Positions 8,845-62,599 of a stretch of 64,000 nt of DNA are shown here, in pieces (positions within the stretch are counted from its first letter, which is position 1; every line of letters begins with the position of its first letter). Origin of the DNA: a virus; IMG/VR virus record IMGVR_UViG_3300033150_001135, positions 1 to 64,000 of that record; one strand, given 5' to 3'. Under the pieces are notes generated by a model. It did no database searches. It was not told the DNA's origin and saw nothing but the letters and a program-made list of their open reading frames with translations. Made by a program: the position numbers and the translations under genes.

Positions 8845-8850
8845 GTATCG

Positions 8851-9939: not shown

Positions 9940-9964
9940 TTCCTTATCAGTAGGTGACGAGGTG

Positions 9965-10678: not shown

Positions 10679-10980
10679 TGAATAAGAAAGAAAGAGAAGA
10701 ATTAGCAATTCGATTATCGGAGCAAGAAAGTTGGAAGGATGCTTTAGTTAAGTTGCCTCCTGAGAGACGAGATAGAGCAGTTGGCTTACCGGAGCATCCA
10801 AAGGAACGAAAGAAGGCGCTTAGAAGAATATTTAACAAAGATGAGAAGTTAGTGAATTACTTTATCAAATGTTACGACGAAGCATTGGAAACAGGTTCTG
10901 GGGTACCTTACGAGAGAGCTTGGATTATGTTTCGGGAACGGTACACAGAGAATGAAGAGGGGGAATGGGTTCTCGAATGA
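10678..10980 (+). CDS. Hypothetical 100-residue charged protein in head operon
   Basis: The start overlaps the ADP-ribosyltransferase stop (TAATG), after AAGGAGC. The protein is acidic/basic mixed and helical (LPPERRDRAVGLPEHPKERK). No recognisable family. Close coupling to the ADP-ribosyltransferase could mean a partner or antidote function, but nothing in the sequence shows this. Confidence 0.6.
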   Translation: MNKKEREELAIRLSEQESWKDALVKLPPERRDRAVGLPEHPKERKKALRRIFNKDEKLVNYFIKCYDEALETGSGVPYERAWIMFRERYTENEEGEWVLE

Positions 10981-12745: not shown

Positions 12746-12750
12746 TACGA

Positions 12751-13038
12751 ATGAAAGTACAAGAAGAAACGATTGAAAAAACTTTTCCTATTGGTAAGGA
12801 GGTTGATGTAAGTAATTTCATTTACATGTTATACCGGTATCCAAAAGGAGAAAACATAAAGATTGAGCATCCTAAGATTGTGATCAACAGGGGGGACGAG
12901 CATACTATAATTGATGAAGAAGGGCAAGAGCACGTGGCTAGGTTGGAAAATTGCTTCCACATAAAATGGAAGACACAGTCGGGTACTAGAAAAAAAGACT
13001 TGAAGAAAGAACTTCTAATGGAAAAGGAGAAGATGTAA
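12751..13038 (+). CDS. Hypothetical 95-residue protein
   Basis: Starts six bases after the phosphoesterase gene (GGAGATAATACG upstream) and ends overlapping the next start by one base. It has a beta-rich centre (KIVINRGDEHTIIDEEGQEH) and a charged C-terminus. I do not recognise a family; the position suggests a head accessory protein. Confidence 0.6.
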   Translation: MKVQEETIEKTFPIGKEVDVSNFIYMLYRYPKGENIKIEHPKIVINRGDEHTIIDEEGQEHVARLENCFHIKWKTQSGTRKKDLKKELLMEKEKM

Positions 13039-13970
13039 TGCCTTTGCCTACAGTACGAGGACCTGAGAAGAGAGAAAGTTTCTTGGGTCGTTGTATGGGA
13101 GACAAAGTAATGAATGACGAGTACCCTGATAGGAGTCAGAGGTATGCTATATGTAATAGTATATGGAGAAAAGCTAAGAAGGAGGAGGATAGGAGAATGT
13201 TAGGGACAATAGTTGCGGCTTTGAGAAGGAGGAAATTGGAGGTTCAAGAAGGTGTGGTATCCTATGGAAACCTTCCTTTTGCAGATGTTAAAGTGAAGTG
13301 GGATGCTGCTGCGGCAAAGGAAAGAGTTAGAAAATGGGCAGGAGGAGACAAAGATAAAATTGACTGGGCAAAGTATAGAAAGGCATTTCTTTGGTATGAT
13401 GTGAAGGACCCTGAAAATTTTGGTTCCTATAAACTACCTATAGCTGACGTTATCGGAGGAGTGTTAAAAGTAGTTCCAAAAGCAGTGATGGCGGCTGGTG
13501 GGGTTATGCGAGGAGCCAGAGGTGGAGTTAGTATACCAAGTAGCGATAAGAGTAAAATTAAAAATATTCTACAAAAGTACTATCATAAAATGGATAGGAA
13601 AGCTCCTTGGGAAGATTCTATACAAGTTTCTGGTATCGTTTTATGGGAAGCATTTATCGTTTTATGGGAAGCATTCCCATCGTTACGACAGGCTATTAAT
13701 ACAGCAGTAGAGGATGCACTCGGGGATTCTTACTTAGTAGTGGATTTTTCAAATAAAGAAATTATTGCGCATAACTCGGAAACAGATCAGTATTACAAAA
13801 TACCGTATAGGTTTACGAAAACACAAGGAGTGGAATTTACTGGAGGAGTAAAGGAGGTAAAGAAGGTAGTTAGTTACGTAGAACAAAATCTATCCACAAA
13901 GGACCTAGTTGATACTGCAAAAGCTAACATGGATGCTTTTGAGTTTTTATTACAGGAGACTAAGAAATGA
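13038..13970 (+). CDS. Head-associated protein with C-terminal conserved phage domain
   Basis: 310 residues. Near the N-terminus lies MGDKVMNDEYPDRSQRYAIC, a motif seen in many phage prohead proteins (K-R-C...PD-Q--A-C-S-W). Residues about 80-190 contain LPFADVKVKWDAAAAKERV and YKLPIADVIGGVLKVVP, with MRGARGGVSIP, a conserved domain usually found next to prohead proteases of the XkdF type. The protein overlaps the protease gene (ATGA). A short tandem duplication (IVLWEAF twice) sits near residue 203. Probable role: capsid assembly or core protein. Confidence 0.6.
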   Translation: MPLPTVRGPEKRESFLGRCMGDKVMNDEYPDRSQRYAICNSIWRKAKKEEDRRMLGTIVAALRRRKLEVQEGVVSYGNLPFADVKVKWDAAAAKERVRKWAGGDKDKIDWAKYRKAFLWYDVKDPENFGSYKLPIADVIGGVLKVVPKAVMAAGGVMRGARGGVSIPSSDKSKIKNILQKYYHKMDRKAPWEDSIQVSGIVLWEAFIVLWEAFPSLRQAINTAVEDALGDSYLVVDFSNKEIIAHNSETDQYYKIPYRFTKTQGVEFTGGVKEVKKVVSYVEQNLSTKDLVDTAKANMDAFEFLLQETKK

Positions 13971-15358
13971 AAAGGCAAACTATACTTGAGTACCGAACAC
14001 CGGATGTAGAAGTACTTGAGGAAAAGAAAGTTTCAGAAAGTTCTGAAGATAGAGAAATACAGGTACGAGTTACCTGGCAACAGGCTGGTACAATTAATAA
14101 CAATAATCGTAGATATCGTAGAGAACTTTTGGAGAGGGAAGTTCGTAAGATTATGGAACGTATAAATCGTGGTGAGACTGTTTGGGGATGTGCTTACCAT
14201 CCATCCGACGGACTAGGGGAAACTAGTGATGTTACCCACAAGTGGAATCGTGTTTGGATAGATGAGAAAGGACATTGCGGAGGTGATCTTACAGTTCTCC
14301 CTACTCAGAAAGGTAAGGATATTCAAACTCTTATAAAGAACGGAAAAATTGGGTTAAGTTCTAGAGGGTTTGGTACAGTAACAGAAACTAAAGAAAAAGT
14401 TGGTGGAAAAGAAATCACATTTTTAGATGTGAATGATGACTATGATCTGGTTTCTCCAGGAGACTGGGTTATTAGCCCTTCTGTGACCGGTACTGGAAAC
14501 GAGAAAGTCATGGAAGAAATGCGTATACTAGAGGAACAGTTTAATAAGGCTAGTTCCTTAGAAGATATATCTAATGGAAGAGGTAGAAAAGTGGATAAAA
14601 AAGTGAAGAAAATTGAATCCATTGAGGCTTTGAGGGAAGCGTATCCTGATCTGGTTATTGAAGCTAAGAAGGATGAGTTGGAGAAAGAACTAGACGAAGC
14701 TGTTAAAGAGAAAGCTGCGAAACTTGCTGACGACTTGAAAGAGACTTATGAAGCTACTATAAAAGAAAAAGATGAAGCTATCAAAGTGAGAGATGAAAAG
14801 TTTACTTCTTTTGTAAGTGACTACAGTGCACTTGAAGGAGTTATACCAGAAGATCAGAAAAAAGATGAAGATACTAAAGGATCTGGTGACAATGATGAGA
14901 AAAAGAAGATAGAAAAGTTGGAGAAGAAATTGAAAACTATAGAGGAAGAGAAGAAGAAACTTGAAGAAGAAAAACAGGACAGGGAACTACAGGAAAAACT
15001 GTCCTCTAAGTTGGACAAGGAGTTAGAAAAAGACGAATACAAGAATTATGCTGTTCTGGTGAAAAAAGATTTACTATCAGAAGATGGTAGGATTAATATT
15101 ATTGGATCAGAAGAGGAAGTGGAAGAAGTGGTTAAAGCGACTTACAATAAAATTTCCAACTACATTACTGAAGCTAAGAAAGCCAATGCAAAGAAGAGTG
15201 GATTCGATGAAAAGGGTCACATAAAAGACCCAGAAGGTGAAAGTAAAGAGAATAAAGAAGAAAAAGAAATTAAAGATCAGAGGCAGTTCCAAGAGGCTGT
15301 AAACTCTGGATACAAAGGTACTTTCGAAGAATTCAAGAAAGATATCCTTGGAGAATAA
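13967..15358 (+). CDS. Prohead protease fused to scaffold-like coiled coil
   Basis: 463 residues in two parts. Residues 1-190 match the T4 gp21-like prohead protease layout: NNNNRRYRRELLEREV near residue 45, AYHPSDG (catalytic His) near residue 83, then KIGLSSRGFG (catalytic Ser) near residue 131. From about residue 200 to the end the sequence is nearly all Glu/Lys/Asp with long coiled-coil heptads, as expected for an internal scaffold. The fusion would deliver protease into the core and be cleaved during maturation. It directly precedes the capsid gene. Confidence 0.8.
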   Translation: MKRQTILEYRTPDVEVLEEKKVSESSEDREIQVRVTWQQAGTINNNNRRYRRELLEREVRKIMERINRGETVWGCAYHPSDGLGETSDVTHKWNRVWIDEKGHCGGDLTVLPTQKGKDIQTLIKNGKIGLSSRGFGTVTETKEKVGGKEITFLDVNDDYDLVSPGDWVISPSVTGTGNEKVMEEMRILEEQFNKASSLEDISNGRGRKVDKKVKKIESIEALREAYPDLVIEAKKDELEKELDEAVKEKAAKLADDLKETYEATIKEKDEAIKVRDEKFTSFVSDYSALEGVIPEDQKKDEDTKGSGDNDEKKKIEKLEKKLKTIEEEKKKLEEEKQDRELQEKLSSKLDKELEKDEYKNYAVLVKKDLLSEDGRINIIGSEEEVEEVVKATYNKISNYITEAKKANAKKSGFDEKGHIKDPEGESKENKEEKEIKDQRQFQEAVNSGYKGTFEEFKKDILGE

Positions 15359-15372
15359 TAGAGGGGATAAAA

Positions 15373-16593
15373 GTGTTTTTAACTGAGACTATAGAAAAGT
15401 ATTTAGAAGAGCAGAAAGATCGAATGGTCAAGCTGGATGAGAAAGAAAATGTTGCTATACCATCACCAGCACGGGATAGAAAAACTGGAAGAACTCTTTC
15501 AGTGCAAGAGGTTCTTTACGGGAACACAATCGATTGGTTGAAAGGAAAAGAAGCACACGAAGCACTTGGTATGGAATTTATGCGGTTGGACAAGCAGTTA
15601 ACTGAAACTGATTTTACGCTTTCAAGTGATGCTCCTACGTTTACTACTCAGATGCTTCCGATTGTTCGGAGAATTTATAGTCGTATGATTAGTATAGACC
15701 TTGTTTCTACGCAGCCAATGACTGGTCCTACTGGGTACATCTACTATTTGGATAAAACCTATGGTGATACTGATGGTACTAGTGGGATTACTTCAGGTGA
15801 TCGTATGGATCAAAAGACTCCTACTAATTATGTGAGAAGTAGTGAACAGGGGACAATTCGTGAAATTAGTATGAAACTTACAAGGAAACTTATTGAAGCT
15901 GGTACTGACAAGTTGAAAGCGGACTGGACATTAGAAGCTGACCAGGATTGGAAAAGTCAGTATAAAGTTGATATTGAGGGTGAATTAGTTCCTGACCTTG
16001 CAGACGAAATTCGAAGAGAGTTGGATCGTAAGATTCTAGACGCTCTTATTGCTGGTGTTGCTCATACAGTTACTTGGAATCCTACTGGTTATCTTGCAGG
16101 TGACACTGATTCTGTTTCTCGAGCAGCTTATCGTAGTACAATCTATGATACTTTAGCGGATGCTAAAGCATGGATAATGGAAAACAAAGTTCTTGATCGT
16201 ATAGATGTTGATTGGTGGTTGGTGATGAGTCCTACTACTTGGGCACGATTTGAAAAGTTAGAGAATCATAATATAGCTCCAATTAGTATTGATCGTACAA
16301 CTGCAGTTGGTAGGAGATTCGAAGGAGTTATTGATAATCGTTGGAAAGTGTATATTAGTAACTATATTGATGACAACAAAATACTTGTTGGAATCAAAGG
16401 TGGGTGGAAGTACGCAGTTGGTTACTATGCTCCGTACATTCCTATGTACACTTCTCCACGATACATTGTTAGTGACGATTTTACTCAGTATGCAAGAGGG
16501 GCTATGTCTCGTTATGCCTATGGTGTAATTCCTGAGACTAGTACTGGAACAACCAACAATGGTTTAGTTCTAATTAATCTTGCCTCAAGCTAA
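15373..16593 (+). CDS. Major capsid protein, T4 gp23-like
   Basis: 406 residues beginning at GTG 15373 behind GAGGGG. Typical HK97-fold/gp23 features: MLPIVRRIYSRMISIDLVST near residue 94, TGPTGYIYYLDKTYG, then KLKADWTLEADQDWKSQY and the helix VPDLADEIRRELDRKILDAL near residue 205, closing with IPMYTSPRYIVSDDFTQ. The terminator immediately downstream (16633) fits strong, independent expression. It carries no obvious extra immunoglobulin-like decoration domain. The first 80 residues probably include the portion cleaved by the prohead protease. Confidence 0.87.
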   Translation: MFLTETIEKYLEEQKDRMVKLDEKENVAIPSPARDRKTGRTLSVQEVLYGNTIDWLKGKEAHEALGMEFMRLDKQLTETDFTLSSDAPTFTTQMLPIVRRIYSRMISIDLVSTQPMTGPTGYIYYLDKTYGDTDGTSGITSGDRMDQKTPTNYVRSSEQGTIREISMKLTRKLIEAGTDKLKADWTLEADQDWKSQYKVDIEGELVPDLADEIRRELDRKILDALIAGVAHTVTWNPTGYLAGDTDSVSRAAYRSTIYDTLADAKAWIMENKVLDRIDVDWWLVMSPTTWARFEKLENHNIAPISIDRTTAVGRRFEGVIDNRWKVYISNYIDDNKILVGIKGGWKYAVGYYAPYIPMYTSPRYIVSDDFTQYARGAMSRYAYGVIPETSTGTTNNGLVLINLASS

Positions 16594-16632
16594 GCCTAAA
16601 CTGAGTGACGTTGGAGAAGAGCTAAGAGCTAA

Positions 16633-16661
16633 GGAGGGGCTTAAAGCCCCTCCAAGGCTTT
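16633..16661 (+). terminator. Terminator after the major capsid gene
   Basis: GGAGGGGC (16633-16640) pairs with GCCCCTCC (16646-16653) around a five-base loop, followed by AAGGCTTTTG. It is a strong GC stem with a short T-run in an AT-rich genome, 40 bases after the capsid stop, so it is a convincing intrinsic terminator or transcript-end stabiliser. Confidence 0.8.
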
Positions 16662-16690
16662 TGTAAAATGGAATAGAAAGAAATAAGTAA

Positions 16691-17719
16691 ATGAAGTCGT
16701 TATTTCAGACAGCAGTAAACGACACAGAAATGTCCCGAGGTTACTATGACCGTATGGGGGAGTGTGTAGTGGTACCTAAGAATACATTTATTAATACTTC
16801 AGAGTTACCATATACCCCAGAACTTACGAAGGTGAACAGTATTTATAAATTTTTAGAAAAAGAAGGGACGAAGAAGATACGGATACATCGTACTATAGCG
16901 TTGGGAGATACTTTAATGGTAGTTCCTGTAGTACGGTATCTTGAGAAAAAAGGATTTAATGTTTTAGTTACAACAAAGAGAGAGTTTTTGCCTATACTAC
17001 GAGCTTTAGATATTCAAGCACTACCATATAAGAAATACGTGGGTAGCTCTAATGGATCTTATAGTATTAACTTGGATGGTACTGTGGAACAAGACCATCA
17101 CCGTCCTAAGTTACAGAAATTACCTAGAGTATACATCTACTTCAACATGTTGGGGGTGTTTACCCCTCCTAAGTTTTTGGATTGGAGTTACAACAGTAAG
17201 AATTTTCCAGTCACTAATGAAAAGAAACCGTATATAGTGTTTCAAGGACAAGGGTCTACGAATGCAAAGTCTTTGTCCCGTGGTGTAATACAAAAGGTTT
17301 TGAAACTTCTTTCTGATCAGAAGTATAACGTAGTATACGTTGGGGATAAGATTCCTTTACGACCTCCAAAAAATGTACGGTTACTATTTAAGAAATGTTC
17401 TATTCTTGAACTTTTTTCACTTATAGAGAGGGCGGAATGCCTTATAACAATGGATTCTGCCCCACTTTGGATATCACACTTTACGAAGACGCCGGTAGTA
17501 GGTATTTTTGGACCAACTGATGGTAGAAACAGACTAAAGTTACATCCATTGTACCCGCATAAAGTAACGGCTATACAGTTAAGTAAACGATTTAGTTGTC
17601 CTTGTTGCTTTGAAGTAGCTAAACGATGTAATTATAACTATAGATGTTTACGTGAGTTAACTGGTGACGAATTATTCGGGTTGATTAAGTTTAAATTGGA
17701 TGTGTTAAAGAAAGGATAG
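16691..17719 (+). CDS. GT9-like glycosyltransferase (heptosyltransferase family)
   Basis: 342 residues with the two Rossmann halves of GT-B enzymes. RTIALGDTLMVVPVVRYLEK near residue 68 corresponds to the N-terminal GxGD motif, and ECLITMDSAPLWISHF near residue 253 plus TPVVGIFGPTDGRNR to the donor-binding C-terminal motif of ADP-heptose:LPS heptosyltransferases. Four Cys near the C-terminus (CPCC...C) are also found in some phage and LPS GT9 proteins. The start has only a weak ribosome site. It is the first gene of the glycan cassette. Confidence 0.78.
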   Translation: MKSLFQTAVNDTEMSRGYYDRMGECVVVPKNTFINTSELPYTPELTKVNSIYKFLEKEGTKKIRIHRTIALGDTLMVVPVVRYLEKKGFNVLVTTKREFLPILRALDIQALPYKKYVGSSNGSYSINLDGTVEQDHHRPKLQKLPRVYIYFNMLGVFTPPKFLDWSYNSKNFPVTNEKKPYIVFQGQGSTNAKSLSRGVIQKVLKLLSDQKYNVVYVGDKIPLRPPKNVRLLFKKCSILELFSLIERAECLITMDSAPLWISHFTKTPVVGIFGPTDGRNRLKLHPLYPHKVTAIQLSKRFSCPCCFEVAKRCNYNYRCLRELTGDELFGLIKFKLDVLKKG

Positions 17720-17724
17720 TAGTA

Positions 17725-20562
17725 ATGGGAGTAGTTACGAGTCTTTTTGAGAATGGGAAGTATTTGAGAAGAGATATAGTAGGATGTACTTTCTACGACC
17801 AAGGTGATCCTGTTAAGTTGGAACCAGGGCAGTTTGTTACGAATAGAGAAATAAGTAGACTTAACATACCGTCTCATTATTTTGTACATCCTGATAGTCT
17901 TCGTATACAAGGCGCTTTTGAGTTTGCGAAGAAAAAGAAAGGAAAGTTTTCAGTAGGAATAATACGGTATCGTCAAGGAAGGGGTGATGTTATTCTAGCA
18001 ACTGTTCTTGCTAAAGCATTAAAAAGTAAGTATGGAAACGATGTATCTGTTTGGTATTTAGTACTTCCTGAACATAAGGAACTACTGCTACATAATCCAT
18101 ACATTGATCGTATTTTTACTGAGAAATCTTCTTTTAAAGCAGCAAAGCCAGATATTGAATTTAGTACTAATGACTTGGATTTTAAAGTTGAGAGGAAAGA
18201 GTTTGAAAAGAATGATAAAGTATTGAGGAACCGTACCTCTATCTATTTGGAAAATATTGGTCTTTCGTTGCAGGACAAAACTCCTGTGTATACGGTTACT
18301 AGTAACGAGAGACGGTGGGCTAAGAAGGAGTTATCTAAGTTGGGGTACTCTTTAGAAGAACCTATTGTAGGAGTACAAATATATAGTGCCAGTCCTTCGA
18401 GGACTTATCCTAAAATGAAGCAGGTGGTGAAAAAACTAAAAGAAACCTACCAGGTTTTAGTGTTGGATGAAAAAGAAGAAGATAGCTGGAAATATACTAT
18501 AAGAGAAAGTGTTGCTTTGTTGGAACAAATGGATGTATTAGTAAGTTCGAATAGTTTCTTCTTTCATATAATGGGAGCGTTACGAAAGAAGGGGGTTGTT
18601 TTATTTGGTTCTGTTGATGGTAGGATATGGACACAAGACTACGAGAAAATAGTACCGGTTGAGATACCTTGTCCAGATGGTGGGGAGAAATGTTGGTGGA
18701 ATCTTCGGTGTTTGCCTGGTGATAGTTATGAAGAAAAGCAAGCTAGTGGTACTCCTAAATGTCTTAGTAATATAGAAGTTGATCAAGTAGTAGAAGAAGT
18801 CCAAAAACGTCTTTCGGTTAAGAAAGTTTTAGTGGTTGTTTTAACTTACAACCTTCTTGATCTTACAAAGAAAGCTATTAGTTCTATACGAAGCTCTTAC
18901 GACTACGATATCTTAGTAATTGATAATGATAGTATTGACGGTACACAGGACTGGTTGAGAAAGAGAGGGATAGAATGTATCTCATACAAATGTACTATTC
19001 CAGAGGCATGGAATCGAGGTATGAAAGAAGCGTATGAAAGAGGTTACGATTACTGTATGCTTTGTAACAATGATATTGTTTTGGCAGATAACTATATAGA
19101 TACTGTTATAGAAACAGCAGAAAGAAGACAGGCGTATGCGGTTACTGGTAACGTTATTTCAAAAGGGCACTTGACTAAAGCTAGGACTTTTGATTTTTCT
19201 CACTTCTTCATTGATGTAGAAAGTTATGTTACTATACAGAAAGCGGGAGACTACTCAGCTTTACTGCTTTCTAGAGAATGTATAGAAAAAATTGGACGGT
19301 TTGATGAAAGATTTGGTCCTCGTTACCAAGCGGATGAAGATCATCTACTTAGACTACGGTTAGCAGGAAGAGCACCTGTAAAAACTTACAATACTTGTTT
19401 TCTTCATCTACTTGGACAAGTCGTTGAATTCGATGCTGAAGCAAAAAAGAATCATCAAAAGGATTGGGATCGTAATGTTCGTTTGTTTAGAAAGCTTTGG
19501 GGTATTGACCCTTATACTGAGAGAGGAAAATTAAAAACATTGGATGTCGTAAAGCGGCGAAATAAAGGATGGAAGGATAGGATTCGTTTACCTATCGATG
19601 GTAAACCATACAAACTGTATACGGAGAATAGTATACCAACTCTTGTAGAGGTGTTTAAGGAAACTATAAAAAAGAAAAAGAAAGTATCAGTATGTATATT
19701 GAGAAGAATGGGGGGGTACGGAGATATCCTTTTCATTACTGTAATTGCTAGGGCATTGAAAGGCAGGTTTGGTAGTAGTATAATACTTAGTTACAGCGTT
19801 CCAGAGCAGTTTGTACCTCTTCTCCAAGGAAACAGATTCATAGATAATATAGTACCAGAAAAAAATGTGGAAAGGGTTGGATACGACCATATTATTGATG
19901 TTACAGATTATGCTTACCGTAAGGAACTTAGAGAGATAGAGGAGTTGGGGGAAGTTAAGTCTTGTAGAACGAAGTTATATTTAGATATGTTAGGTATTGA
20001 AAAAGGTACATTAAAGCCGGACTATTTTGTAGACCCCCAGGAGATAAAGTGGGCTGAGGAAAGGTGGAAGTTTGCAGATGGTAGAAAAAAACTTGTAATA
20101 GTTTGGAGAGGAAGTAACCTTATGAAAGTGTGGCCGTATATGGGAACTTTGGTTAACAAACTTAGGCAGTCAACAGATTATGCAATTACTATACTAGGGA
20201 ACCCAGAAAATAATAACTTTAAGTATACATTTAGAGAGGCTGCTGCTATCGTATCACAAGCCGATCTAGTTGTTTCACCAGATACGGGACTTTCTAACTT
20301 AGCGGGTTCTTTGAATGTACCTGTACTTACTATTTTCGGTAACCGTAATGGTAAGGTTTTTGCTAAAATGTTTGATACTATGATTCCTATACAAGGTAGT
20401 TGTCCCATGCTAAGAAAGAACTACTGTGACTTTAGTGCTCCGTGTAGACCGGGTATTTTAAGACAGTATAGGAGGAAGGAGAATATAGCTATTCCCGATT
20501 GTTTGAGGAATCTTTCCGTTGACGAAGTTTATACAAGAATTAAGGAGACTATAAAAGAATGA
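17725..20562 (+). CDS. Three-domain glycosyltransferase: GT9-GT2-GT9
   Basis: 945 residues. Domain 1 (about 70-365) is GT9-like: RQGRGDVILATVLAKALK near 83 and SSNSFFFHIMGALRKKG near 275. Domain 2 (about 366-600) is a GT-A family 2 transferase: VVVLTYNLLDLTKKAISSI, VIDNDSIDGT, LCNNDIVLAD (DxD-like, near 445) and GPRYQADEDHLL near 530. Domain 3 (about 655-945) is again GT9-like: RRMGGYGDILFITVIA and VSPDTGLSNLAGSLNVPVLT near 845. The two GT9 domains are not close copies. The enzyme may add three sugars in sequence to one acceptor; donors and acceptor are unknown. Confidence 0.8.
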   Translation: MGVVTSLFENGKYLRRDIVGCTFYDQGDPVKLEPGQFVTNREISRLNIPSHYFVHPDSLRIQGAFEFAKKKKGKFSVGIIRYRQGRGDVILATVLAKALKSKYGNDVSVWYLVLPEHKELLLHNPYIDRIFTEKSSFKAAKPDIEFSTNDLDFKVERKEFEKNDKVLRNRTSIYLENIGLSLQDKTPVYTVTSNERRWAKKELSKLGYSLEEPIVGVQIYSASPSRTYPKMKQVVKKLKETYQVLVLDEKEEDSWKYTIRESVALLEQMDVLVSSNSFFFHIMGALRKKGVVLFGSVDGRIWTQDYEKIVPVEIPCPDGGEKCWWNLRCLPGDSYEEKQASGTPKCLSNIEVDQVVEEVQKRLSVKKVLVVVLTYNLLDLTKKAISSIRSSYDYDILVIDNDSIDGTQDWLRKRGIECISYKCTIPEAWNRGMKEAYERGYDYCMLCNNDIVLADNYIDTVIETAERRQAYAVTGNVISKGHLTKARTFDFSHFFIDVESYVTIQKAGDYSALLLSRECIEKIGRFDERFGPRYQADEDHLLRLRLAGRAPVKTYNTCFLHLLGQVVEFDAEAKKNHQKDWDRNVRLFRKLWGIDPYTERGKLKTLDVVKRRNKGWKDRIRLPIDGKPYKLYTENSIPTLVEVFKETIKKKKKVSVCILRRMGGYGDILFITVIARALKGRFGSSIILSYSVPEQFVPLLQGNRFIDNIVPEKNVERVGYDHIIDVTDYAYRKELREIEELGEVKSCRTKLYLDMLGIEKGTLKPDYFVDPQEIKWAEERWKFADGRKKLVIVWRGSNLMKVWPYMGTLVNKLRQSTDYAITILGNPENNNFKYTFREAAAIVSQADLVVSPDTGLSNLAGSLNVPVLTIFGNRNGKVFAKMFDTMIPIQGSCPMLRKNYCDFSAPCRPGILRQYRRKENIAIPDCLRNLSVDEVYTRIKETIKE

Positions 20563-21065
20563 CACGAGTAGAGCAATTACTACTAAATTGTCCAGATATT
20601 TTATGTTACAATACTTTACTGTATGTTGGAGCAAGGGATAGAAAACAAATGGTAAAGTATTTTGTGGCAGCTGGGTATGATATAACAATACTTGAAATTT
20701 GGCCTCCAAATGTTAGAAAACTAAAGAAGCAAGGATGGAATGTTATTGAAGGGGATGTTCGTAAGTTAGATGAATATTTCGTAAACAAATTTGACGTAGT
20801 AATGTGGTGGCATGGTCCGGAGCACTTACAGAAGGATGAGTTATCGGATGCTTTGATGAAATGTTATAAAACGTCTAATATAATGTCTGTTGTGGCGTGT
20901 CCTTGGGGGGTGTACAAACAAGGTGTGGTAGCGGGAAACCCTTATGAACGTCACCTATCTTACTTATATCCTGAATTTTTTCACGAGCTAGGTTGGAATA
21001 CGGACACTATTGGAACAAAGGATTGTGAAGGATCTAACTTGTTAGCGTGGAAGGTTGTGGAGTAA
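20559..21065 (+). CDS. SAM-dependent methyltransferase-like protein
   Basis: 168 residues overlapping the previous gene by four bases. LLYVGARDRKQMVKYF near residue 20 occupies the place of the SAM-binding glycine loop, ITILEIWPPN supplies the acidic end of strand 2, and DVVMWWHGPEHL near 77 resembles motif IV of class I methyltransferases (D-EHL). It is shorter than usual. Probably methylates a sugar in the glycan assembled by neighbouring enzymes; this is inferred from context. Confidence 0.6.
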   Translation: MTRVEQLLLNCPDILCYNTLLYVGARDRKQMVKYFVAAGYDITILEIWPPNVRKLKKQGWNVIEGDVRKLDEYFVNKFDVVMWWHGPEHLQKDELSDALMKCYKTSNIMSVVACPWGVYKQGVVAGNPYERHLSYLYPEFFHELGWNTDTIGTKDCEGSNLLAWKVVE

Positions 21066-21883
21066 TGGTGTACATTGGGATGATAGTCCATAACGAGGAA
21101 TGGATAGTAGAATATGCCTTGAAAAGTACATACGAGTTTGTGGACAAGATTATTGTTGTTGATGGGTCTCCCACGGGACCATCAACAGATCGTACAGTAG
21201 AAATTGTAAAGTCTATAGGACCAAAAATTAAAGTAATACAAGGAACTTACAAAAATAAACTTTTTCAGAGACAAGCATACATTGACGAAATGGAGAAAGG
21301 ATACGACCACTGGTGTATTCTCCAGGATGCTGATGAAGTATATAAGAAATCTGACATAAAGAGACTGGTTAACTATTTGCATACAGCTAGTAATAGAACT
21401 AAACTATTTAGTTGGCAATGGATTCATTTTTATGGTGATTGTTGGCATATACTTCGTGGAGATTCTTGGGATAGACCTCGGGATGTAGGGGCGTTTCGAC
21501 TAGTTCCTGGAATTAAGCAGTTGAAACATCACTGGGTTGGTAGAGAAAAAGATAGTAAGGAAGGTAGAAAAACTGGCTTTTCTGGTTTGAAATTTCCTGA
21601 AAGAATAATTTTGAAGGACGTTTGTTTTTTTCATTACACAGGGTGTGATCCTTTTGAGCATTTTGTAGAGAAACGTAAGTTATACTTTCATCGTGATCGT
21701 GAAATGCGGAACCGTAATGGTAAGGAATATAGTAAAGAAGATTGGGGCAGTTACTATGTTGAAGTTGTATTACCTGAATGGGAGAATAGAAAAATTCCTC
21801 AGGCATTGGGTTCTAAGGTGGAGAAGTTTGCTGGAACCCATCCGGAAGTGATGAAATCGTTTATAGAAAGGAACGTGAAGTAA
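21065..21883 (+). CDS. GT2-like glycosyltransferase
   Basis: ATG 21065 overlaps the previous stop (TAATG) and gives 272 residues. VYIGMIVHNEEWIVEYALKS at the N-terminus, IIVVDGSPTGPSTDRT near residue 33, and LQDADEVY (DxD) near residue 87 mark a GT-A family 2 fold. The C-terminal half holds a conserved aromatic/His-rich acceptor region (FFHYTGCDPFEHFV). Donor sugar unknown. Confidence 0.78.
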   Translation: MVYIGMIVHNEEWIVEYALKSTYEFVDKIIVVDGSPTGPSTDRTVEIVKSIGPKIKVIQGTYKNKLFQRQAYIDEMEKGYDHWCILQDADEVYKKSDIKRLVNYLHTASNRTKLFSWQWIHFYGDCWHILRGDSWDRPRDVGAFRLVPGIKQLKHHWVGREKDSKEGRKTGFSGLKFPERIILKDVCFFHYTGCDPFEHFVEKRKLYFHRDREMRNRNGKEYSKEDWGSYYVEVVLPEWENRKIPQALGSKVEKFAGTHPEVMKSFIERNVK

Positions 21884-22588
21884 ATGATTACGTCGGAACG
21901 ACGAAAGTTTATATTTAAGCATACTCCTCGTACGGCGGGTAAGACAATTATATATGCATTGAGAAACTATATTGATTTCTATAAGGGTGGGCATTCCTCT
22001 CTTCCCTCTGTAATTAGTGGTATGAAAGATGTTTATAAGATAGATAAGAATGGGGGAACGATTGGTAAAGGTAAAGATGGAGTGTTTACTAAGTTGATGG
22101 GGTTACGTGGAACTAAGTTAGATTATTGGAAACTGTCTGACGATATAAGTAACTACTTTGTTTTTACGTTTGTTAGAAATCCTTTTGTTCGGTTGGTATC
22201 TGGGTTTTTTCATAGAAAAAATAATGGAAATTTTGGAAAGTATGAGTTTAGTAAGAAGGGGTTTAAAAGACTGATTCAAGACCAATTTGAAGGTAGGCGA
22301 CCCGTTATTCCTCAACTTTGCCCTCTTGTAGATGAAGAAAACAAGTTGTTGTGTGATTTCGTTGGTAAGTATGAAAGGTTACAAAGTGACTTTGACTTAG
22401 TATGTGATCAGTTAGGTATTCAAAGAATTAAGTTGGAGGAGGTTATTGATTATCTTAACCCTAGTATTAGAGATAGAAGAGAATATGGAAACTACAAAGA
22501 CTACTACGATCAAGAAACTATAAAAATGGTGCAGAAGATGTATGAGAAGGATTTTGAAGTGTTTGGTTATGATAAGGAGCTACAGTGA
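21884..22588 (+). CDS. Carbohydrate sulfotransferase (Sulfotransfer_2-like)
   Basis: 234 residues. IFKHTPRTAGKTIIYAL (residues about 10-26) is the PAPS 5'-phosphosulfate loop, and FTFVRNPFVRLVSGF near residue 92 is the 3'-phosphate-binding motif with the RNPF-R signature of Golgi-type carbohydrate sulfotransferases. It would transfer sulfate from PAPS to a sugar hydroxyl. It abuts the GT2 gene. The key motifs are intact and length is normal. No APS kinase or sulfurylase is in the window, so PAPS would come from the host. Confidence 0.77.
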   Translation: MITSERRKFIFKHTPRTAGKTIIYALRNYIDFYKGGHSSLPSVISGMKDVYKIDKNGGTIGKGKDGVFTKLMGLRGTKLDYWKLSDDISNYFVFTFVRNPFVRLVSGFFHRKNNGNFGKYEFSKKGFKRLIQDQFEGRRPVIPQLCPLVDEENKLLCDFVGKYERLQSDFDLVCDQLGIQRIKLEEVIDYLNPSIRDRREYGNYKDYYDQETIKMVQKMYEKDFEVFGYDKELQ

Positions 22589-22603
22589 GTGATGTAGAAT
22601 TAC

Positions 22604-23348
22604 TTGTTGGCAATGCTTCAAGAAAGGAAACTACGAAGAATGATACATGGTAAGTACGTATTAAAGTCAACCGATATAATGCTAGGAAGCTATCCTAGGT
22701 CAGGAAACACTTGGCTCCGGCATCTTATAACATTGGTTAGGTATCCTGGTAAGAACATTGAGAAAGAGGATCTTGTGAATAGAACTGTTCCTGACCTTCA
22801 CTCTCCTATTACTACTGAAGAAATGGTGGATACATTAACTAACCCTAGAGTGTTTAAAACTTCTCTACAGAGATCCCCGTGACGTGGCGATTTCATACTT
22901 TCATTTCAATAAAAAATTGAACAAATATAGTGGTACCTTTAATACTTGGTTAAGGATGTTTCTTAATTCTTACTTTCCTTTTTTTCCTATGGTTAATTGG
23001 AGACAACATACAGAGTCATGGTTGAAAGGTAAGGAAAGAAATATTAATAGTATTTTAGTTGTTAAGTATGAGGATATGGTTGCAAACATATACGATACAG
23101 TAGCTGAAGTATGTAAATTTATAGGGTTGCAGGCTGATAAGCAGGTTGTAGTGGAAGCTATAAAAGGTTCTAGTTTTGAAAGAATTAATAGAATATATAG
23201 TAGATCGAATCGTCTTACCTGGGTTGGTATTCGAGGAGGTCCTGGTCAGTGGAAAGAAACATTAACAGACCCCCAGAATGATGAATTTTGGAAACGGTGG
23301 GGGAATTTTATGTCTCAACTTGGTTATAAGAAAGAAAGAAATTCGTAA
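22604..23348 (+). pseudogene. Second sulfotransferase (Sulfotransfer_1-like), broken
   Basis: The first frame (22604-22882; ATG 22613 likely) has the PAPS loop SYPRSGNTWLRHLI and PRVFKTS, then hits TGA at 22880-22882. The second half continues in another frame: YRDPRDVAISYFHF, the 3'-phosphate motif, is encoded from about 22868 through 22912, followed by WRQHTESWLKGKE and a C-terminal GGPGQWKETL, to 23348. Between KT and YRDPRD the usual family has about 10-15 more residues (KTHLPY... and a strand), so a small deletion plus frameshift is likely. A sequencing error alone would not explain the missing segment. Confidence 0.72.
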
Positions 23349-24031
23349 TGGTAATGACTAACTATAAACCTAGAGAAGTCAGATCAAATAAAGATTTTTT
23401 CGACTCTAACTACTGGGAAAAGTACTGGAAAGACCGGTTTAATGTTACACCGAGTTTAGACAACAAAGTAGCTAATAGAGAAAGTAACAAGAAACTGAAT
23501 TACTTGAAAAGGTATGTATTTCCAGTAGAAAATGCTTTGGATGTAGGATGTGGATACGGGTTCTTAGTTAACAAGTTAAGAGAGGAGAAAGTAGATGCGT
23601 ATGGGATAGATGTTTCTACAGCTGCTGTTGCTCGTAGTCCCGTTAAGAAATTTCTAAAGGTAATGGATGTGAAAAGTAACGATAGTAATAAGTTTGAATT
23701 GGTTACCTGCTTCGATCTTCTTGAACATCTTTTTATTGAAGAAATTTTTAAGGCAGTAAAACAGATTAATAGGGTGGCTAGTAAGTATATTCTTATTCGT
23801 CTTCCGGTTCTAGCGTGGAACGATGATCGTGATGTAAATGACTTTTCGTATAAAAGTTTAGATAAGTCACATGTTTCTATTTATCCTCAAGAGTTTTGGG
23901 TAAGAAGGTTTTGTGAATTAAAAAAGTTTGATTGGTGTTTTTCTCACTTGTGGAATTCTAAAGGTGGGGGAAACGATGGATGTGAAGCTTGGATAACTTT
24001 TAAAAGGATTAGTGATGGAACTAAGAAATAA
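23348..24031 (+). CDS. Class I SAM-dependent methyltransferase
   Basis: 227 residues. VENALDVGCGYGFLVNKLRE near residue 59 is the SAM glycine motif, VDAYGIDVS the acidic strand 2 and LVTCFDLLEHLFIEEI near 120 motif IV, as in Methyltransf_11/23 enzymes acting on small molecules or sugars. It overlaps the broken sulfotransferase by one base and the reductase by 17 bases. It is most likely a sugar methylase in this glycan cassette. Confidence 0.78.
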   Translation: MVMTNYKPREVRSNKDFFDSNYWEKYWKDRFNVTPSLDNKVANRESNKKLNYLKRYVFPVENALDVGCGYGFLVNKLREEKVDAYGIDVSTAAVARSPVKKFLKVMDVKSNDSNKFELVTCFDLLEHLFIEEIFKAVKQINRVASKYILIRLPVLAWNDDRDVNDFSYKSLDKSHVSIYPQEFWVRRFCELKKFDWCFSHLWNSKGGGNDGCEAWITFKRISDGTKK

Positions 24032-24956
24032 GAAAATACTAGTTACTGGTGCCTTTGGGTTCTTAGGTACACAGGTAATGAAAGTACTATCAAGAAAAGG
24101 ATGTAAAGAATACGTTGGAGTAGGAAGTGACTATGATCTTAGAAACGAAGACATTACAAACTCTATAATTGCTGGTCAGGATGTTGTAATACATCTTGCT
24201 GCTAACTGTGGTGGTATAGGGTGGAACAGGAGGTATCCTGGATCCTTATTCTACGATAATATGAAGATGGGTATGAATGTAATAGAAGCTTGTAGAAAGA
24301 ATAAAGTTCAAAAACTACTGATTACTGGTACAGTATGTTCGTACCCTAAATATACTAGAGTTCCTTTTAGTGAGGAAGCTTTATGGACTGGATATCCAGA
24401 AGAAACAAATGCTCCGTATGGGATATCCAAGAAAGCGTTGCTTGTCATGGCTAACTCGTACAGAGACCAGTATGGATTAAATATTATATTTCTACTGCCC
24501 TCGAATCTTTATGGAGTTGGAGATCCTGGGTTTTTTAATGAGAAGAAAGCACATGTAATTCCTGCAATAACTAGAAAAGTTTTTGATGCTAAAGTTACTA
24601 GTAGAAGTGAGATAACGTTGTGGGGGGATGGTACCCCTACAAGAGAATTTCTTAACGTTAAGGATTGTGCTGAAGCTATTTATCTAGCTTTAAAGAACTA
24701 TAATGGAGCAGCTCCAGTTAACGTAGGTACTGGAGAAGAAATTTCTGTAAAGGATTTAGCTTCGAAAATAAGTGGGTTGGTAGGTTATGCTGGAAGGATA
24801 CGTTGGGATACAAGCAAACCGAACGGACAGCCACAAAGAAAACTTGCAGTAGATAAGGCGAAACAGTTGTTTGGATTTGAGTCCCAGGTATCTTTCGACC
24901 AAGGATTGAAGGAAACTATAAACTGGTATACTAAAGAGAGAAATACAAATGGCTGA
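24015..24956 (+). CDS. fcl: GDP-L-fucose synthase-like NAD(P)-dependent epimerase/reductase
   Basis: ATG 24015 is preferred to GTG 24012. The 313-residue short-chain reductase has VTGAFGFLGTQVMKVL (NADP-binding GxxGxxG), HLAANCGGIGWN, LLITGTVCSYPK with the catalytic Ser region, and YGISKKALL (YxxxK). CGGIGWNRRYPGSLFYDNM closely follows the GDP-fucose synthase pattern. That enzyme makes GDP-L-fucose from GDP-4-keto-6-deoxymannose; the partner dehydratase Gmd is not in this window, so the host or another part of the genome must supply it. Confidence 0.75.
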   Translation: MELRNKKILVTGAFGFLGTQVMKVLSRKGCKEYVGVGSDYDLRNEDITNSIIAGQDVVIHLAANCGGIGWNRRYPGSLFYDNMKMGMNVIEACRKNKVQKLLITGTVCSYPKYTRVPFSEEALWTGYPEETNAPYGISKKALLVMANSYRDQYGLNIIFLLPSNLYGVGDPGFFNEKKAHVIPAITRKVFDAKVTSRSEITLWGDGTPTREFLNVKDCAEAIYLALKNYNGAAPVNVGTGEEISVKDLASKISGLVGYAGRIRWDTSKPNGQPQRKLAVDKAKQLFGFESQVSFDQGLKETINWYTKERNTNG

Positions 24957-25203
24957 AACTTTAGGAAGTCTTGTGGATAAGTTAACCATTGTTAATCTAA
25001 AGATTTGGAATAAAGAGGTAGTAGCCCATAATAACGACTTAGATGATCATACAGTAGCAGAGGCAAAACGGGCAATAAATGTACTAAATAACCAAAGAAG
25101 TGAGCTAAAAGCGGAAATTGATCAGTTGTTTTATGAAGTGACTAGGGGGGAGAGGAACCCTCCAAAGGTTTGGTATGAGTTTAAAGACTATAAAAAGAAA
25201 TGA
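24949..25203 (+). CDS. DUF4254-like small protein
   Basis: 84 residues, overlapping the reductase gene end. The segment ETLGSLVDKLTIVNLKIW followed by AEAKRAINVLNNQRSELKAE is the pattern of DUF4254 proteins, short helical proteins that occur among LPS and glycosyltransferase genes. The function is unknown. Its location at the end of the glycan cassette agrees with that association. Confidence 0.7.
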   Translation: MAETLGSLVDKLTIVNLKIWNKEVVAHNNDLDDHTVAEAKRAINVLNNQRSELKAEIDQLFYEVTRGERNPPKVWYEFKDYKKK

Positions 25204-25355
25204 GAATACGAAAAAGAGTTATCCGGAACAACAGTTCAGTAGACAAGTATATCGTTGATGCTTTTGGGGAAATTCATACTATATATCCTAAGAAATCAAA
25301 GCGAATTAGAATGATTGAGAATGAAGGCGAGAAAGGAGGAGGTACAAAGATATGA
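25200..25355 (+). CDS. 51-residue basic hypothetical protein
   Basis: ATG 25200 overlaps the previous stop (ATGA), and the reading frame ends at TGA 25353-25355 overlapping the next start. The product is basic, with a central IVDAFGEIHTIYPKKSKRIR. It bridges the glycan cassette and the connector genes. The family is not recognised. Confidence 0.5.
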   Translation: MRIRKRVIRNNSSVDKYIVDAFGEIHTIYPKKSKRIRMIENEGEKGGGTKI

Positions 25356-26038
25356 CAGAAGTACAGTTAATTAGTTATGTTCGTTCTAAGTGTGGGGGAA
25401 TTACAAGTAATATGGGTGAACTTGATGATACTGATATAACTAGTAATGCTAGTTGGATACTACAGAAACTTGAGGAACGAATAACCGTAAGAAAGATAAA
25501 ATCAATTACTTCAGTTAAGAACCAAAGAGAATATGATGTATCATCTAGTACGCTACGGGTACAGGAAATACTTCCTTGGGATGCATGCGCAGAGAAGGAA
25601 AGTATGGTGTTAGGTGGGTATGAAACTAGTGAAATAGATGCGAATGAGAACTATAATTTTCCATCACTATGGAAGATTAGAATGATGAAACGTATGCGAG
25701 GTCTCGCAAACATAACTTGTGACTTTGATCCTATAAATAGAAAGATTCGTATTGATCCGGCACCTGATGAAGGGGGGAAGAAGTATTGGTATGTGTCGAT
25801 AGAGAAGTCACAGTGGACTTTAGAAAAAGTACCTCCTGATTTCGAAGACATGGTAGTAACTGGGGTAAGTTGGCGATGTTTGAATAAGATAGCTTTGAAA
25901 CGAAGCCGTCTTGGGGGGATACAACGTTCGGGAGGAATGGTTGACTATCCGGAGGCACGGTTAGAGTCGTTTATTGAACGATGGAAAAAAGAATTTTTCG
26001 ACGAACTTAACATAAAGGCAAAACTGTATAGTAGGTAA
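25352..26038 (+). CDS. Probable head-tail connector protein
   Basis: 228 residues with an N-terminal helical stretch (residues 1-45) and a beta-rich middle (residues 50-150), behind GGAGGAGG. It is the first of four consecutive genes that match the usual order connector, tail completion, tail terminators, tail tube. I have no family-specific motif, so the call is based on position, size and helical/beta pattern. Confidence 0.5.
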   Translation: MTEVQLISYVRSKCGGITSNMGELDDTDITSNASWILQKLEERITVRKIKSITSVKNQREYDVSSSTLRVQEILPWDACAEKESMVLGGYETSEIDANENYNFPSLWKIRMMKRMRGLANITCDFDPINRKIRIDPAPDEGGKKYWYVSIEKSQWTLEKVPPDFEDMVVTGVSWRCLNKIALKRSRLGGIQRSGGMVDYPEARLESFIERWKKEFFDELNIKAKLYSR

Positions 26039-26040
26039 AT

Positions 26041-26529
26041 ATGTTAGATTTGAAAGTTTCTGTTGATTCATCCGTAATGTTTCGACGTTTAGGGTCAATT
26101 AATAATAGAATTATTCCTTACGTAGGGATTAGTTTCAAGAAATTCGTTGAATTAGCAGAAGCGAAGATAGTAGCCTATACTCCTAGAACTCAAGAAGGAA
26201 GAACTGATATAAAGAAGTTATGGAGAGTTACGCATTCTAGGAAAGGACGTGTAGAGAGTTTTATAATTCATAACATTTACCCTAAGAAAGAAGTTCTTAT
26301 TTTCATTGAAGAAGGAACTCGTCCACATACTATATTTCCAGTGCGTACGAAAGCATTACATTTTTATTGGAGAGGTTCAGAAGTATTTACTAAACGAGTA
26401 GACCATCCAGGAACGGAAGGGGCAGAAATGGTTGGGCGTACAGAAAAGGAACTTAATAGTATGGTGAATTTTTACATCAACGACACAGAGAGGCAAATAG
26501 ATAAGTTGTGGAAGGAAGGACTTAGATAA
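26041..26529 (+). CDS. Tail completion protein, HK97 gp10-like
   Basis: 162 residues. EEGTRPHTIFPVRTKALHFY near residue 96, preceded by a helical N-terminal half (VELAEAKIVAYTPRTQEGRT), followed by DHPGTEG, is the signature of HK97 gp10-like neck/tail completion proteins. Overlaps the next gene by one base. Confidence 0.8.
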   Translation: MLDLKVSVDSSVMFRRLGSINNRIIPYVGISFKKFVELAEAKIVAYTPRTQEGRTDIKKLWRVTHSRKGRVESFIIHNIYPKKEVLIFIEEGTRPHTIFPVRTKALHFYWRGSEVFTKRVDHPGTEGAEMVGRTEKELNSMVNFYINDTERQIDKLWKEGLR

Positions 26530-26954
26530 TGGCTTATACAAAAAGTACTAAAGAGGCTATACTAGATAATCTTGCTACTGCTATTAGTGGAATATCTGGT
26601 ATAGGGTTTGTAGACTATCAGAGAGTTTACAATTCTTCGATAACTCAAGATAAGTATCCCGGGGTGTTCATAAATGATATACGAACTGATAAAGTTCGGT
26701 TATTGAAAGATATTGTAAAGAATTTGTTTTCTGTGGAACTTGTTTGTTGGGTTTGGGCGTCAGATACACAGGATCTTGGTACTGAAATGAATAGTTTTAT
26801 GGAGAAAGTAAAAAGTGCAGTCCTTAACGATATTACTAGAGGTGGAAATGCTTTCAATACTAAACTAACTATTGTTGAGACGGATGCAGGAAGTAGACAT
26901 CCTCAAGGGCTTTTTGTATGCGCAGTAGAGATAACCTTTTTTAGTAGTAATTAA
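26529..26954 (+). CDS. Tail terminator-like protein
   Basis: 141 residues with a helix (KSTKEAILDNLATAISGI), a beta strand pair (YPGVFINDI), and a long strand (NLFSVELVCWVWA), the layout of tail terminators (lambda gpU / SPP1 gp17 class), which cap the tail tube. It lies between the gp10-like gene and the tube protein; the family is assigned by pattern and synteny only. Confidence 0.6.
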   Translation: MAYTKSTKEAILDNLATAISGISGIGFVDYQRVYNSSITQDKYPGVFINDIRTDKVRLLKDIVKNLFSVELVCWVWASDTQDLGTEMNSFMEKVKSAVLNDITRGGNAFNTKLTIVETDAGSRHPQGLFVCAVEITFFSSN

Positions 26955-28784: not shown

Positions 28785-28835
28785 TAGTTACTAAGTTTGA
28801 GGAGTTAAGAAGAGAATTTGTGAAAAATAAAAGAC

Positions 28836-28875
28836 TAAGGGGTGGGATTAGTAGTATTCCACCCCTTATCTTTTA
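28836..28875 (+). terminator. Terminator after the major tail gene
   Basis: TAAGGGGTGG (28836-28845) pairs perfectly with CCACCCCTTA (28859-28868), extended by two further pairs into the loop, and is followed by TCTTTTAAATT. It lies 52 bases after the tail protein stop. It is the second strong GC-rich stem in the structural region. Confidence 0.85.
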
Positions 28876-28908
28876 AATTATAAAAAATTTATGGAGGTAG
28901 TAAAGAAA

Positions 28909-60088: not shown

Positions 60089-60798
60089 AATATATAGTAA
60101 TTACAGGGGCAAGTAAAGGAATAGGACATAAGTTATTAAGTGATCTTGTAGCAACTTTACCAGAGAGCGACTATAGAATCATACATATAAGTCGTACCCC
60201 TTCTAAGTTGCTATCTTCCTCTACTTGTACTTGGATAGAAGCAGACTTAAGTACTGAAGAAGGGCTTCTAGACTGTCAGTTTCGTTTAACACGACAGATC
60301 GAAGAAGAAGAATTAGTTGTTTTAGTAAACAATGCGGGAGCTATGCCTTTGGGGCAAAGTTTTACAGAAACTACGTTTAAACGGTATAACGAGGTTATGG
60401 ATTTGAATCTAAAAGCGGTGTTCTTTATGTGTAAGTTTTGTATACCACTGATGTTGGACGGAGGGAGAATTGTTAACGTATCCTCTACTTCAGGAGTGAG
60501 AGCGGAGGAGGATGAGCATATAGTTCCTTACGGGGTAGCGAAAGCAGGAGTAATAATGCTAACTAAGTATCTTGCTCGTCTCTATCCTAGACTTTGCATT
60601 AATTCTGTGTCACCAGGATTTGTGGCTCCTACGGAGTTGGTACCAGGGGAAACCCCTAAATCCTTAATTGAAAGTATACCAAAGCAGCGGGAAGCAACAA
60701 CGGGAGAAATATCCTCTATTATTCAGTATCTTTGTTTTGGTGACTCCGACTATATAACTGGCCAAAATTTTGTAATAGATGGAGGTAGTTCATTGTGA
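60085..60798 (+). CDS. Short-chain dehydrogenase/reductase
   Basis: 237 residues. ITGASKGIGHKLLSDL (NAD(P)-binding, residues 6-21), VVLVNNAGAMP (about 86), VNVSSTSGVRA (catalytic Ser) and YGVAKAGVIML (Tyr-x3-Lys), closing SVSPGFVAPTEL; all catalytic residues of classical SDRs are present. Overlaps neighbours by 4 bases. Its substrate, sugar or modified base, is unknown. Confidence 0.83.
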   Translation: MKYIVITGASKGIGHKLLSDLVATLPESDYRIIHISRTPSKLLSSSTCTWIEADLSTEEGLLDCQFRLTRQIEEEELVVLVNNAGAMPLGQSFTETTFKRYNEVMDLNLKAVFFMCKFCIPLMLDGGRIVNVSSTSGVRAEEDEHIVPYGVAKAGVIMLTKYLARLYPRLCINSVSPGFVAPTELVPGETPKSLIESIPKQREATTGEISSIIQYLCFGDSDYITGQNFVIDGGSSL

Positions 60799-61766
60799 GA
60801 CGTAGTACAGATAAGAAAATTTTCGTTATAGGGGACGTAATGTTGGATCGTTATATCTACGGAACTACCACTCGTTTGTCTCCTGAGGCACCAGTTCCTG
60901 TAGTAGATATAAGCAGAGAGTCCCACTCGCTAGGGGGAGCAGGTAACGTATACCAGAACTTAAAAGCACTTGGGGCACGAGTTGCTCTTTTCGGAGTTGT
61001 TGGGGCGGATTTACAAGGGAAGTTAGTTAAGGATTTAGTAGTGGGAGAACCGGTAGGTCTTCAGATTTCTCGTAGTAAACCCACGACTACAAAGACTCGT
61101 ATCGTAGCGCGTCAACAACAACTTATTCGTTTGGATAGAGAAGATAGAAGTGAAATAGAGTGGGAAGCAAGAGAAGCTATTAAAAGTTACGTAATAAGTA
61201 ACTGTAAAGATGTAGATGGTATTGTTTTTTCAGACTATAACAAAGGGGTTGTTACAGATGCTTTAGTTACTCCTATTTTGGAACTTGCTAAGAAACGAGA
61301 TATTCCAGTATTTGTAGATACTAAGAGAAAGGATGTATCCCTTTTCAATCCTATTACTTTTATTACCCCAAACCACGTGGAACTGGGGAGAGTTACTTTT
61401 TGGGACGAACGTCCATGTGAGACAGAAGAGGAAATAAGAAGAGGGGTAGAACGGTTGTTTAAAGCGATCGATACTAAGTATGTGATTGTAAAAAGAGGGG
61501 AGAATGGGACAATGTCCTTTGAGAAGAGAAAAGATAAAGTAGTGAGTTTCAGAGCTCTCGTACAGACTAGGAAAGTATACGATGTAACAGGAGCTGGGGA
61601 TACTGTGTTAGCGGTGGTGGTACTAACTTATCTTATGGGATATTCTATAGAGGAGATAACAAAATTCGCTAACAAGGCGGGTGGTATGGTAGTAGAAAAA
61701 ATGGGTACTGCCCAGGTAAAGAAGGAAGAACTATTTAACTTAGAAAAAGAAAAGGAGAGTAAATGA
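60795..61766 (+). CDS. PfkB-family sugar kinase, HldE N-terminal domain-like
   Basis: 323 residues from GTG 60795. FVIGDVMLDRYIYGTTTRLS and PEAPVPVVDISRESHSLGGA, GNVYQNLKALGARVALFGVV closely follow RfaE/HldE heptose-7-phosphate kinase; IVFSDYNKGVV and VYDVTGAGDTVLAV provide the PfkB anion-hole. HldE phosphorylates heptose-7-P at C1; the cytidylyl/adenylyltransferase half of HldE is missing. Neighbouring heptosyltransferase-like genes are in the glycan cassette, and this kinase could serve them or phosphorylate a ribose or nucleoside in this operon. Confidence 0.82.
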   Translation: MRRSTDKKIFVIGDVMLDRYIYGTTTRLSPEAPVPVVDISRESHSLGGAGNVYQNLKALGARVALFGVVGADLQGKLVKDLVVGEPVGLQISRSKPTTTKTRIVARQQQLIRLDREDRSEIEWEAREAIKSYVISNCKDVDGIVFSDYNKGVVTDALVTPILELAKKRDIPVFVDTKRKDVSLFNPITFITPNHVELGRVTFWDERPCETEEEIRRGVERLFKAIDTKYVIVKRGENGTMSFEKRKDKVVSFRALVQTRKVYDVTGAGDTVLAVVVLTYLMGYSIEEITKFANKAGGMVVEKMGTAQVKKEELFNLEKEKESK

Positions 61767-62580: not shown

Positions 62581-62599
62581 TGAGGGGAGGCGCTTAGTT

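Follow-up and report, generated by a model that had tools for sequence, protein, structure and literature searches.

A glycosyltransferase cassette behind the Gp23-type capsid gene of uncultured viruses as a candidate virion glycosylation system

What is a set of sugar-handling genes doing between the major capsid gene and the next head gene of a virus? The question is raised by the first 64 kb of the 92,145-bp IMG/VR virus record IMGVR_UViG_3300033150_001135 (hereafter the window, 64,000 nucleotides in all), which encodes a T4-type head with a Gp20-like portal, a Gp21-like protease and a Gp23-like capsid protein, and in which nine genes, plus an open reading frame (ORF) of 51 amino acids (aa), separate the Gp23-type capsid gene (15373-16593) from the next head gene, which starts at 25352. 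A preliminary description, drawn from the letters alone, had suggested that these genes form a cassette that decorates virion proteins with a sulfated deoxysugar glycan. Pfam and further family models recovered all nine genes in place (Table 1), although the earlier inventory had overlooked the conserved 51-aa ORF. We conclude that the cassette, inserted in the head operon, probably serves to glycosylate the virion, with the capsid protein as the likeliest acceptor.

The transferase pair behind the capsid gene

The first cassette gene encodes a GT9 glycosyltransferase and the second a 945-aa protein of GT9-GT2-GT9 architecture. The PF01075 (GT9) cut-off of 22 bits was exceeded by the first protein (35 bits) and by the C-terminal domain of the second (56 bits). 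The N-terminal GT9 domain of the 945-aa protein was missed by Pfam, and we regard it as real because it is homologous to the C-terminal one (28% identity over 291 aa, E 6e-40); the three-domain architecture proposed earlier, with its central GT2, thus held.

We gathered related loci (L numbers below) by using the capsid, GT9 and GT9-GT2-GT9 proteins as queries against viral contigs, placed the capsid gene of L008 by tblastn and counted near-identical contigs once, which left about 15 distinct IMG/VR viruses; the counts come from incomplete contigs. The GT9 gene lies directly 3' of the Gp23 capsid gene in 17 of the 18 fetched GT9 loci, the long transferase (GT9-GT2 protein) follows it wherever the contig extends far enough, and the Gp21-like protease gene is kept 5' of the capsid gene; the long transferase of L161 is shortened, to 630 aa, and lacks the C-terminal GT9. 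Capsid identity among these viruses falls to about 34%, and the G+C content of the fetched stretches ranges from 0.31 to 0.54. As an outgroup control, other Gp23 contigs were examined, with GT9 found in 1/28 and Sulfotransfer_1 likewise in 1/28; the sole GT9-bearing contig (L078) repeats the arrangement in another form and carries, in this order, the Gp23 gene, a GT9-like gene, a GT9 and a 1224-aa GT2/GT1 protein. Conservation and outgroup controls together rule out chance neighbours. In the comparison of L006 with L007, the GT9 had a ratio of nonsynonymous to synonymous substitution rates of 0.06 and the long transferase one of 0.08, near that of the capsid protein (0.11; protease, 0.16), indicating that the pair is functional and under purifying selection. 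Outside these viruses, a search of 50,697 cultured phage records gave no match to the pair; 84,980 GTDB genomes likewise yielded none, the GT9 and GT9-GT2-GT9 scans there using one or two short patterns each.

Behind the pair, gene content varies and includes radical SAM enzymes, GT2s, sulfatase-fold proteins, LicD-like proteins, nucleotidyltransferases and epimerases, with a sulfotransferase of one of three families in at least 7 of the 15 viruses (several of the other contigs end early). The first two genes form a fixed core, the remainder being apparently exchanged between viruses. Sulfatase/phosphodiesterase-fold proteins occur in three of the glycan cassettes (L013:13618-14853, L014:16369-17604 and L016:15671-16918); the first two, on which the test was run, match Sulfatase.

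TibC-like fold and shared N-terminal module

By sequence the phage GT9 is a general member of its family, and its predicted structure (predicted local distance difference test, pLDDT, 91) brings it closer to one relative in particular: the nineteen best PDB matches are all chains of TibC, a protein O-heptosyltransferase with an N-terminal beta-barrel and a four-cysteine iron finger (PMC4358343), at a template-modelling score of about 0.6 and E 1e-12, the large root-mean-square deviation marking a loose whole-chain superposition. Behind TibC rank a Veillonella GT9 and the lipopolysaccharide (LPS) heptosyltransferases WaaC and HepII. The GT9 has an N-terminal beta module (about residues 1-50), G72-D73 and four cysteines (303, 306, 313 and 319) that are invariant in 15 sequences, with a spacing of 2-6-5 as against 2-15-11 in TibC. 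It thus resembles TibC by predicted fold, yet falls outside the TibC family model. A few proteins of uncultured phages already carry the annotation of a TibC-like domain.

The N-terminal modules of the GT9 and the GT9-GT2-GT9 protein are homologous (hhalign score 46.6; best of 150 column shuffles, 13.6). The module recurs in the proteins at either end of the L078 cassette. A weaker match lies in a 65-aa protein of L079, a Gp23 locus without cassette in which the capsid gene is followed by a gene for 174 aa, the module protein and the next head gene. The module also starts a 226-aa protein and is contained in a 107-aa ORF, both encoded 5' of the capsid gene in L013 (L013:2354-3034 and L013:4345-4665). 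We propose that the module might dock the core transferases on a virion protein. The 51-aa ORF of the window was considered as a stand-alone relative of the module; its match was weak (1 of 150 shuffles as good; E 0.004) and we do not claim it.

Cassette genes and sugar supply

Table 1. Features of the cassette, its boundaries and a possible donor-supply gene in the window
Feature	Position	Strand	Support
Head maturation protease, Gp21-like; upstream module boundary	13967..15358	+	PHROG 207 E 4e-23
Gp23-type major capsid protein	15373..16593	+	Pfam Gp23 E 5e-39
Hairpin directly 3' of capsid gene, terminator-like, without T-run	16623..16663	+	z -3.46 for intergenic stretch
GT9, 342 aa, TibC-like predicted fold; proposed protein-priming transferase	16691..17719	+	Pfam GT9 E 1e-8
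GT9-GT2-GT9 protein, 945 aa; proposed chain extender	17725..20562	+	Pfam GT2 E 3e-9, C-terminal GT9 E 4e-15
Small methyltransferase-like protein	20559..21065	+	Methyltransf_11 E 0.002, below cut-off; 42% identical ORF in L007
GT2	21047..21883	+	Pfam E 4e-9; relatives in L007, L013, L014 at 34-36%
Sulfotransfer_2 protein, intact	21884..22588	+	Pfam E 3e-19; PF03567 70.5 bits, cut-off 22
Sulfotransfer_1 gene, split by 41-bp gap relative to sister contig	22604..23348 (ORFs 22604-22882, 22884-23348)	+	Pfam, sister contig comparison
Methyltransferase dependent on S-adenosylmethionine	23348..24031	+	Methyltransf_23 E 3e-11
NAD-dependent sugar epimerase/reductase, GDP-fucose-synthase-like	24012..24956	+	Epimerase E 3e-50
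DUF4254 protein, 84 aa	24949..25203	+	43.5 bits, cut-off 27; domain match 24952-25161
Conserved 51-aa ORF	25200..25355	+	Present in six viruses
Next head/neck gene, downstream boundary	25352..26038	+	43-53% identical in L005, L015, L017, L020
HldE-domain-I-like heptose-7-phosphate kinase; possible donor supply	60795..61766	+	TIGR02198 324 bits, cut-off 345

Of the boundaries proposed in the preliminary description, the capsid terminator stood as a strong hairpin (z -3.5), which has a strong counterpart of differing sequence at this position in 9 of 10 relatives, but it was not among the results of the terminator scan, which required a T-run. With the hairpin in place, expression of the capsid gene may exceed that of the enzyme genes that follow. 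The downstream "connector" gene holds by position only, no family model matching 25352-26038.

A sulfated product is plausible from the gene content, with a sulfotransferase in many of the cassettes and one intact copy in the window, the Sulfotransfer_2 protein, in whose translation both binding motifs for 3'-phosphoadenosine 5'-phosphosulfate (PAPS), HTPRTAGKTI and FVRNPFVRLVSGF, can be made out by eye. The sulfate would come from host PAPS; no PAPS-synthesis gene was seen, though no systematic search was made. The second sulfotransferase, described earlier as broken, is so in the window contig alone: PF00685 Sulfotransfer_1 is intact (261 aa) in the sister contig 3300033156_000195 (L003), which rules out a fixed lesion and leaves population variation or an assembly fault. 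Across positions 7076-26543 of the window, a stretch of 19.5 kb, the two contigs show no mismatch but about six short indels, of 41, 21, 6 and 3 bases among others; several fall in coding sequence. The pattern is odd for natural strains and perhaps related to assembly. As for the supposed rarity of phage sulfotransferases, they are uncommon, yet known (PHROG 3347; Stenotrophomonas phage DLP_6).

The deoxysugar fared less well. It rests on a single reductase, whose closest match is GDP-L-fucose synthase (GDPFucSynFcl, NF047922), at 274 bits against a curated cut-off of 500, and for which no partner dehydratase was seen; in L005, L008, L014, L017 and L020, homologues of the reductase sit where the cassette ends on its 3' side. 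The GT9 domains appear to point to heptose at least as much as to a deoxysugar, and the three of them, taken with the heptose-kinase-like gene, suggest heptose in this virus.

Elsewhere in the window, the T4-type portal and capsid proteins occur alongside a tail tube of the Phage_tube_2 family and a tape measure of the PhageMin_Tail family (6947-8539, 15373-16593, 27630-34555); none of the examined genes stood out as encoding a tail sheath. A 7-deazaguanine (preQ0) pathway (58029-59051, 61768-63301; L010 13495-14561) comprises a GTP cyclohydrolase I-phosphoribosyltransferase fusion, two QueC-like proteins, a QueD-like protein and a QueE-like radical SAM enzyme, and might possibly lead to DNA modification; a related locus encodes a protein that is TGT/DpdA-like by eye, without Pfam match (L009:14393-15361). 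Positions 52917-53795 encode a nucleotidyltransferase-like protein of the RlaP type (RNA repair pathway). The window holds no tRNA, and a near-identity DNA search against phages gave no match.

Acceptor, alternatives and known systems

We infer the following scheme for acceptor, sugars, order of steps, sulfation and coat function. Late in infection, the cytosolic TibC-related GT9 would put the first sugar on a virion protein, likeliest the Gp23-type capsid protein; the 945-aa protein would then extend the chain, perhaps docked on the same particle by the common N-terminal module, and the separate GT2 would add to it; finally the variable enzymes (methyltransferases, sulfotransferases using host PAPS and the GDP-fucose-synthase-like reductase) would supply or finish sugars. 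Since the variable genes seem to be exchanged between viruses, related viruses would bear different coats, which could serve to evade or tune binding to host surfaces, antibodies or grazers. Virion decoration as such, already proposed in the preliminary description, is made more plausible by the capsid-transferase linkage in about 15 viruses, the TibC-like predicted fold, the common module, purifying selection and the lack of membrane enzymes. The fullest version, in which a TibC-type protein heptosyltransferase primes the capsid, the module docks the core pair and an exchangeable set sulfates and methylates the chain into a serotype-like coat, we offer only tentatively.

Several observations weigh against this scheme. 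Gene order is suggestive but by itself no proof of a functional link, and a related GT9 with DUF4254 occurs in an unrelated phage contig that has no capsid gene upstream (L164:5995-10531). The GT9s score under the TibC family cut-off (TIGR04414; 14.8 of 200 bits), and no acceptor site was identified; the structure predicted for the capsid protein, made in search of acceptor loops, was too poor for that purpose (pLDDT 57). Nor is ADP-heptose supply conserved: the heptose kinase is present in this record only (1 of 20) and GmhA is absent from all records searched, relatives included, which rules out heptose supply as a general feature; an HldE-II/TagD-like nucleotidyltransferase, below cut-off, occurs in five records. 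At L164:5995-10531, several short proteins around the GT9 and DUF4254 genes have an N-terminal MSKTFTNKEVFG motif in common.

The acceptor might also be a tail tube, fibre or neck protein of the virion instead of the capsid protein, a variant of the same scheme that we consider unlikely: the module-bearing proteins of L013 and, more weakly, L079 could be partners or acceptors, and mycobacteriophage tail tubes are glycosylated too (as cited in PMC12363180), but the cassette adjoins the capsid gene and not the tail genes. Modification of the host surface (LPS core, O-antigen or S-layer glycan), for example for superinfection block or progeny release, with the site behind the capsid gene being a tolerated insertion site with late expression, is in our view likewise unlikely. 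GT9 enzymes are mostly LPS heptosyltransferases, 14 of the 15 GT9 members hit a model for LPS heptosyltransferases, though with scores far under its cut-off, the variable sets of GT2, sulfotransferase, methyltransferase and epimerase genes look like surface-polysaccharide loci, and the L017 cassette contains a DUF2061 membrane protein. However, the transferase pair is fixed behind the capsid gene across great divergence, the predicted fold of the GT9 is nearest to a protein glycosyltransferase, and genes placed in the head region are probably expressed late, which is late for blocking superinfection. Neither a flippase nor a polymerase nor a polyprenyl-phosphate transferase was seen, the family scans found no Gtr-type families (membrane flippase, membrane-anchored transferases) apart from a weak match of the GT2 domain to a GtrB-like family, and no cassette protein of the window has a membrane segment, which fits a chain built on a soluble protein and not Gtr-type surface modification. 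Action on phage DNA is highly improbable: glycosylation of phage DNA is common and the genome also encodes the preQ0 pathway, but the cassette lies among head genes, its core resembles TibC and LPS heptosyltransferases and not known DNA glycosyltransferases, and we know of no sulfotransferases acting on DNA.

Virion glycosylation, the preferred reading, has precedents. In an open-access literature search that was not exhaustive, we found no description of a clade with a TibC-like GT9 and a fused GT9-GT2-GT9 protein fixed behind Gp23 and followed by an exchangeable set in which sulfotransferases are frequent. Capsid and tail tube proteins of mycobacteriophages (Che8, Corndog, Myrna; Freeman et al. 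2023) are glycosylated by phage glycosyltransferases, as cited in PMC12363180 and PMC12619734, and the same kind of action is proposed for the present cassette. Novelty would therefore be confined to the sulfated form and the gene arrangement. Unlike the mycobacteriophages, the present viruses have sulfotransferases and a three-domain transferase, and their GT9 pair is fixed next to the capsid gene. The variable genes suggest that close relatives wear different coats; if so, these would be phages with surface serotypes of their own, with consequences for adsorption, antibody recognition, persistence and grazing.

Chlorovirus PBCV-1 likewise builds its own capsid glycan with a multi-domain transferase (the three-domain A064R) and methyltransferases (PMC9614988), but it is a eukaryotic virus, and A064R is a GT-GT-methyltransferase as against the GT9-GT2-GT9 protein of the window. 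Mimivirus glycogene clusters, some with sulfate metabolism, are clade-specific and variable (PMC9614988); they belong to giant viruses of amoebae and concern fibril glycans. With the TibC/AAH autotransporter heptosyltransferases (PMC4358343) the phage GT9 has in common the predicted GT-B fold, nearest among solved structures, an N-terminal beta domain and the GD motif, and its four-cysteine cluster may correspond to the iron finger of TibC; it differs in being about 16% identical and below the NCBIfam cut-off, in its shorter cysteine spacing and in adjoining a capsid gene, whereas TibC/AAH adjoins an autotransporter. A capsid-linked TibC relative, if true, would be a new setting for protein heptosylation. 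Sulfotransferase families are found in other phage genomes (PHROG 3347; DLP_6; OM43 phages, PMC10580990), where their role has been called unclear (PMC10580990), and a cassette fixed behind the capsid gene gives such enzymes a concrete, testable job: the DLP_6 gene lies among replication genes, the present ones in a capsid-linked glycan cassette.
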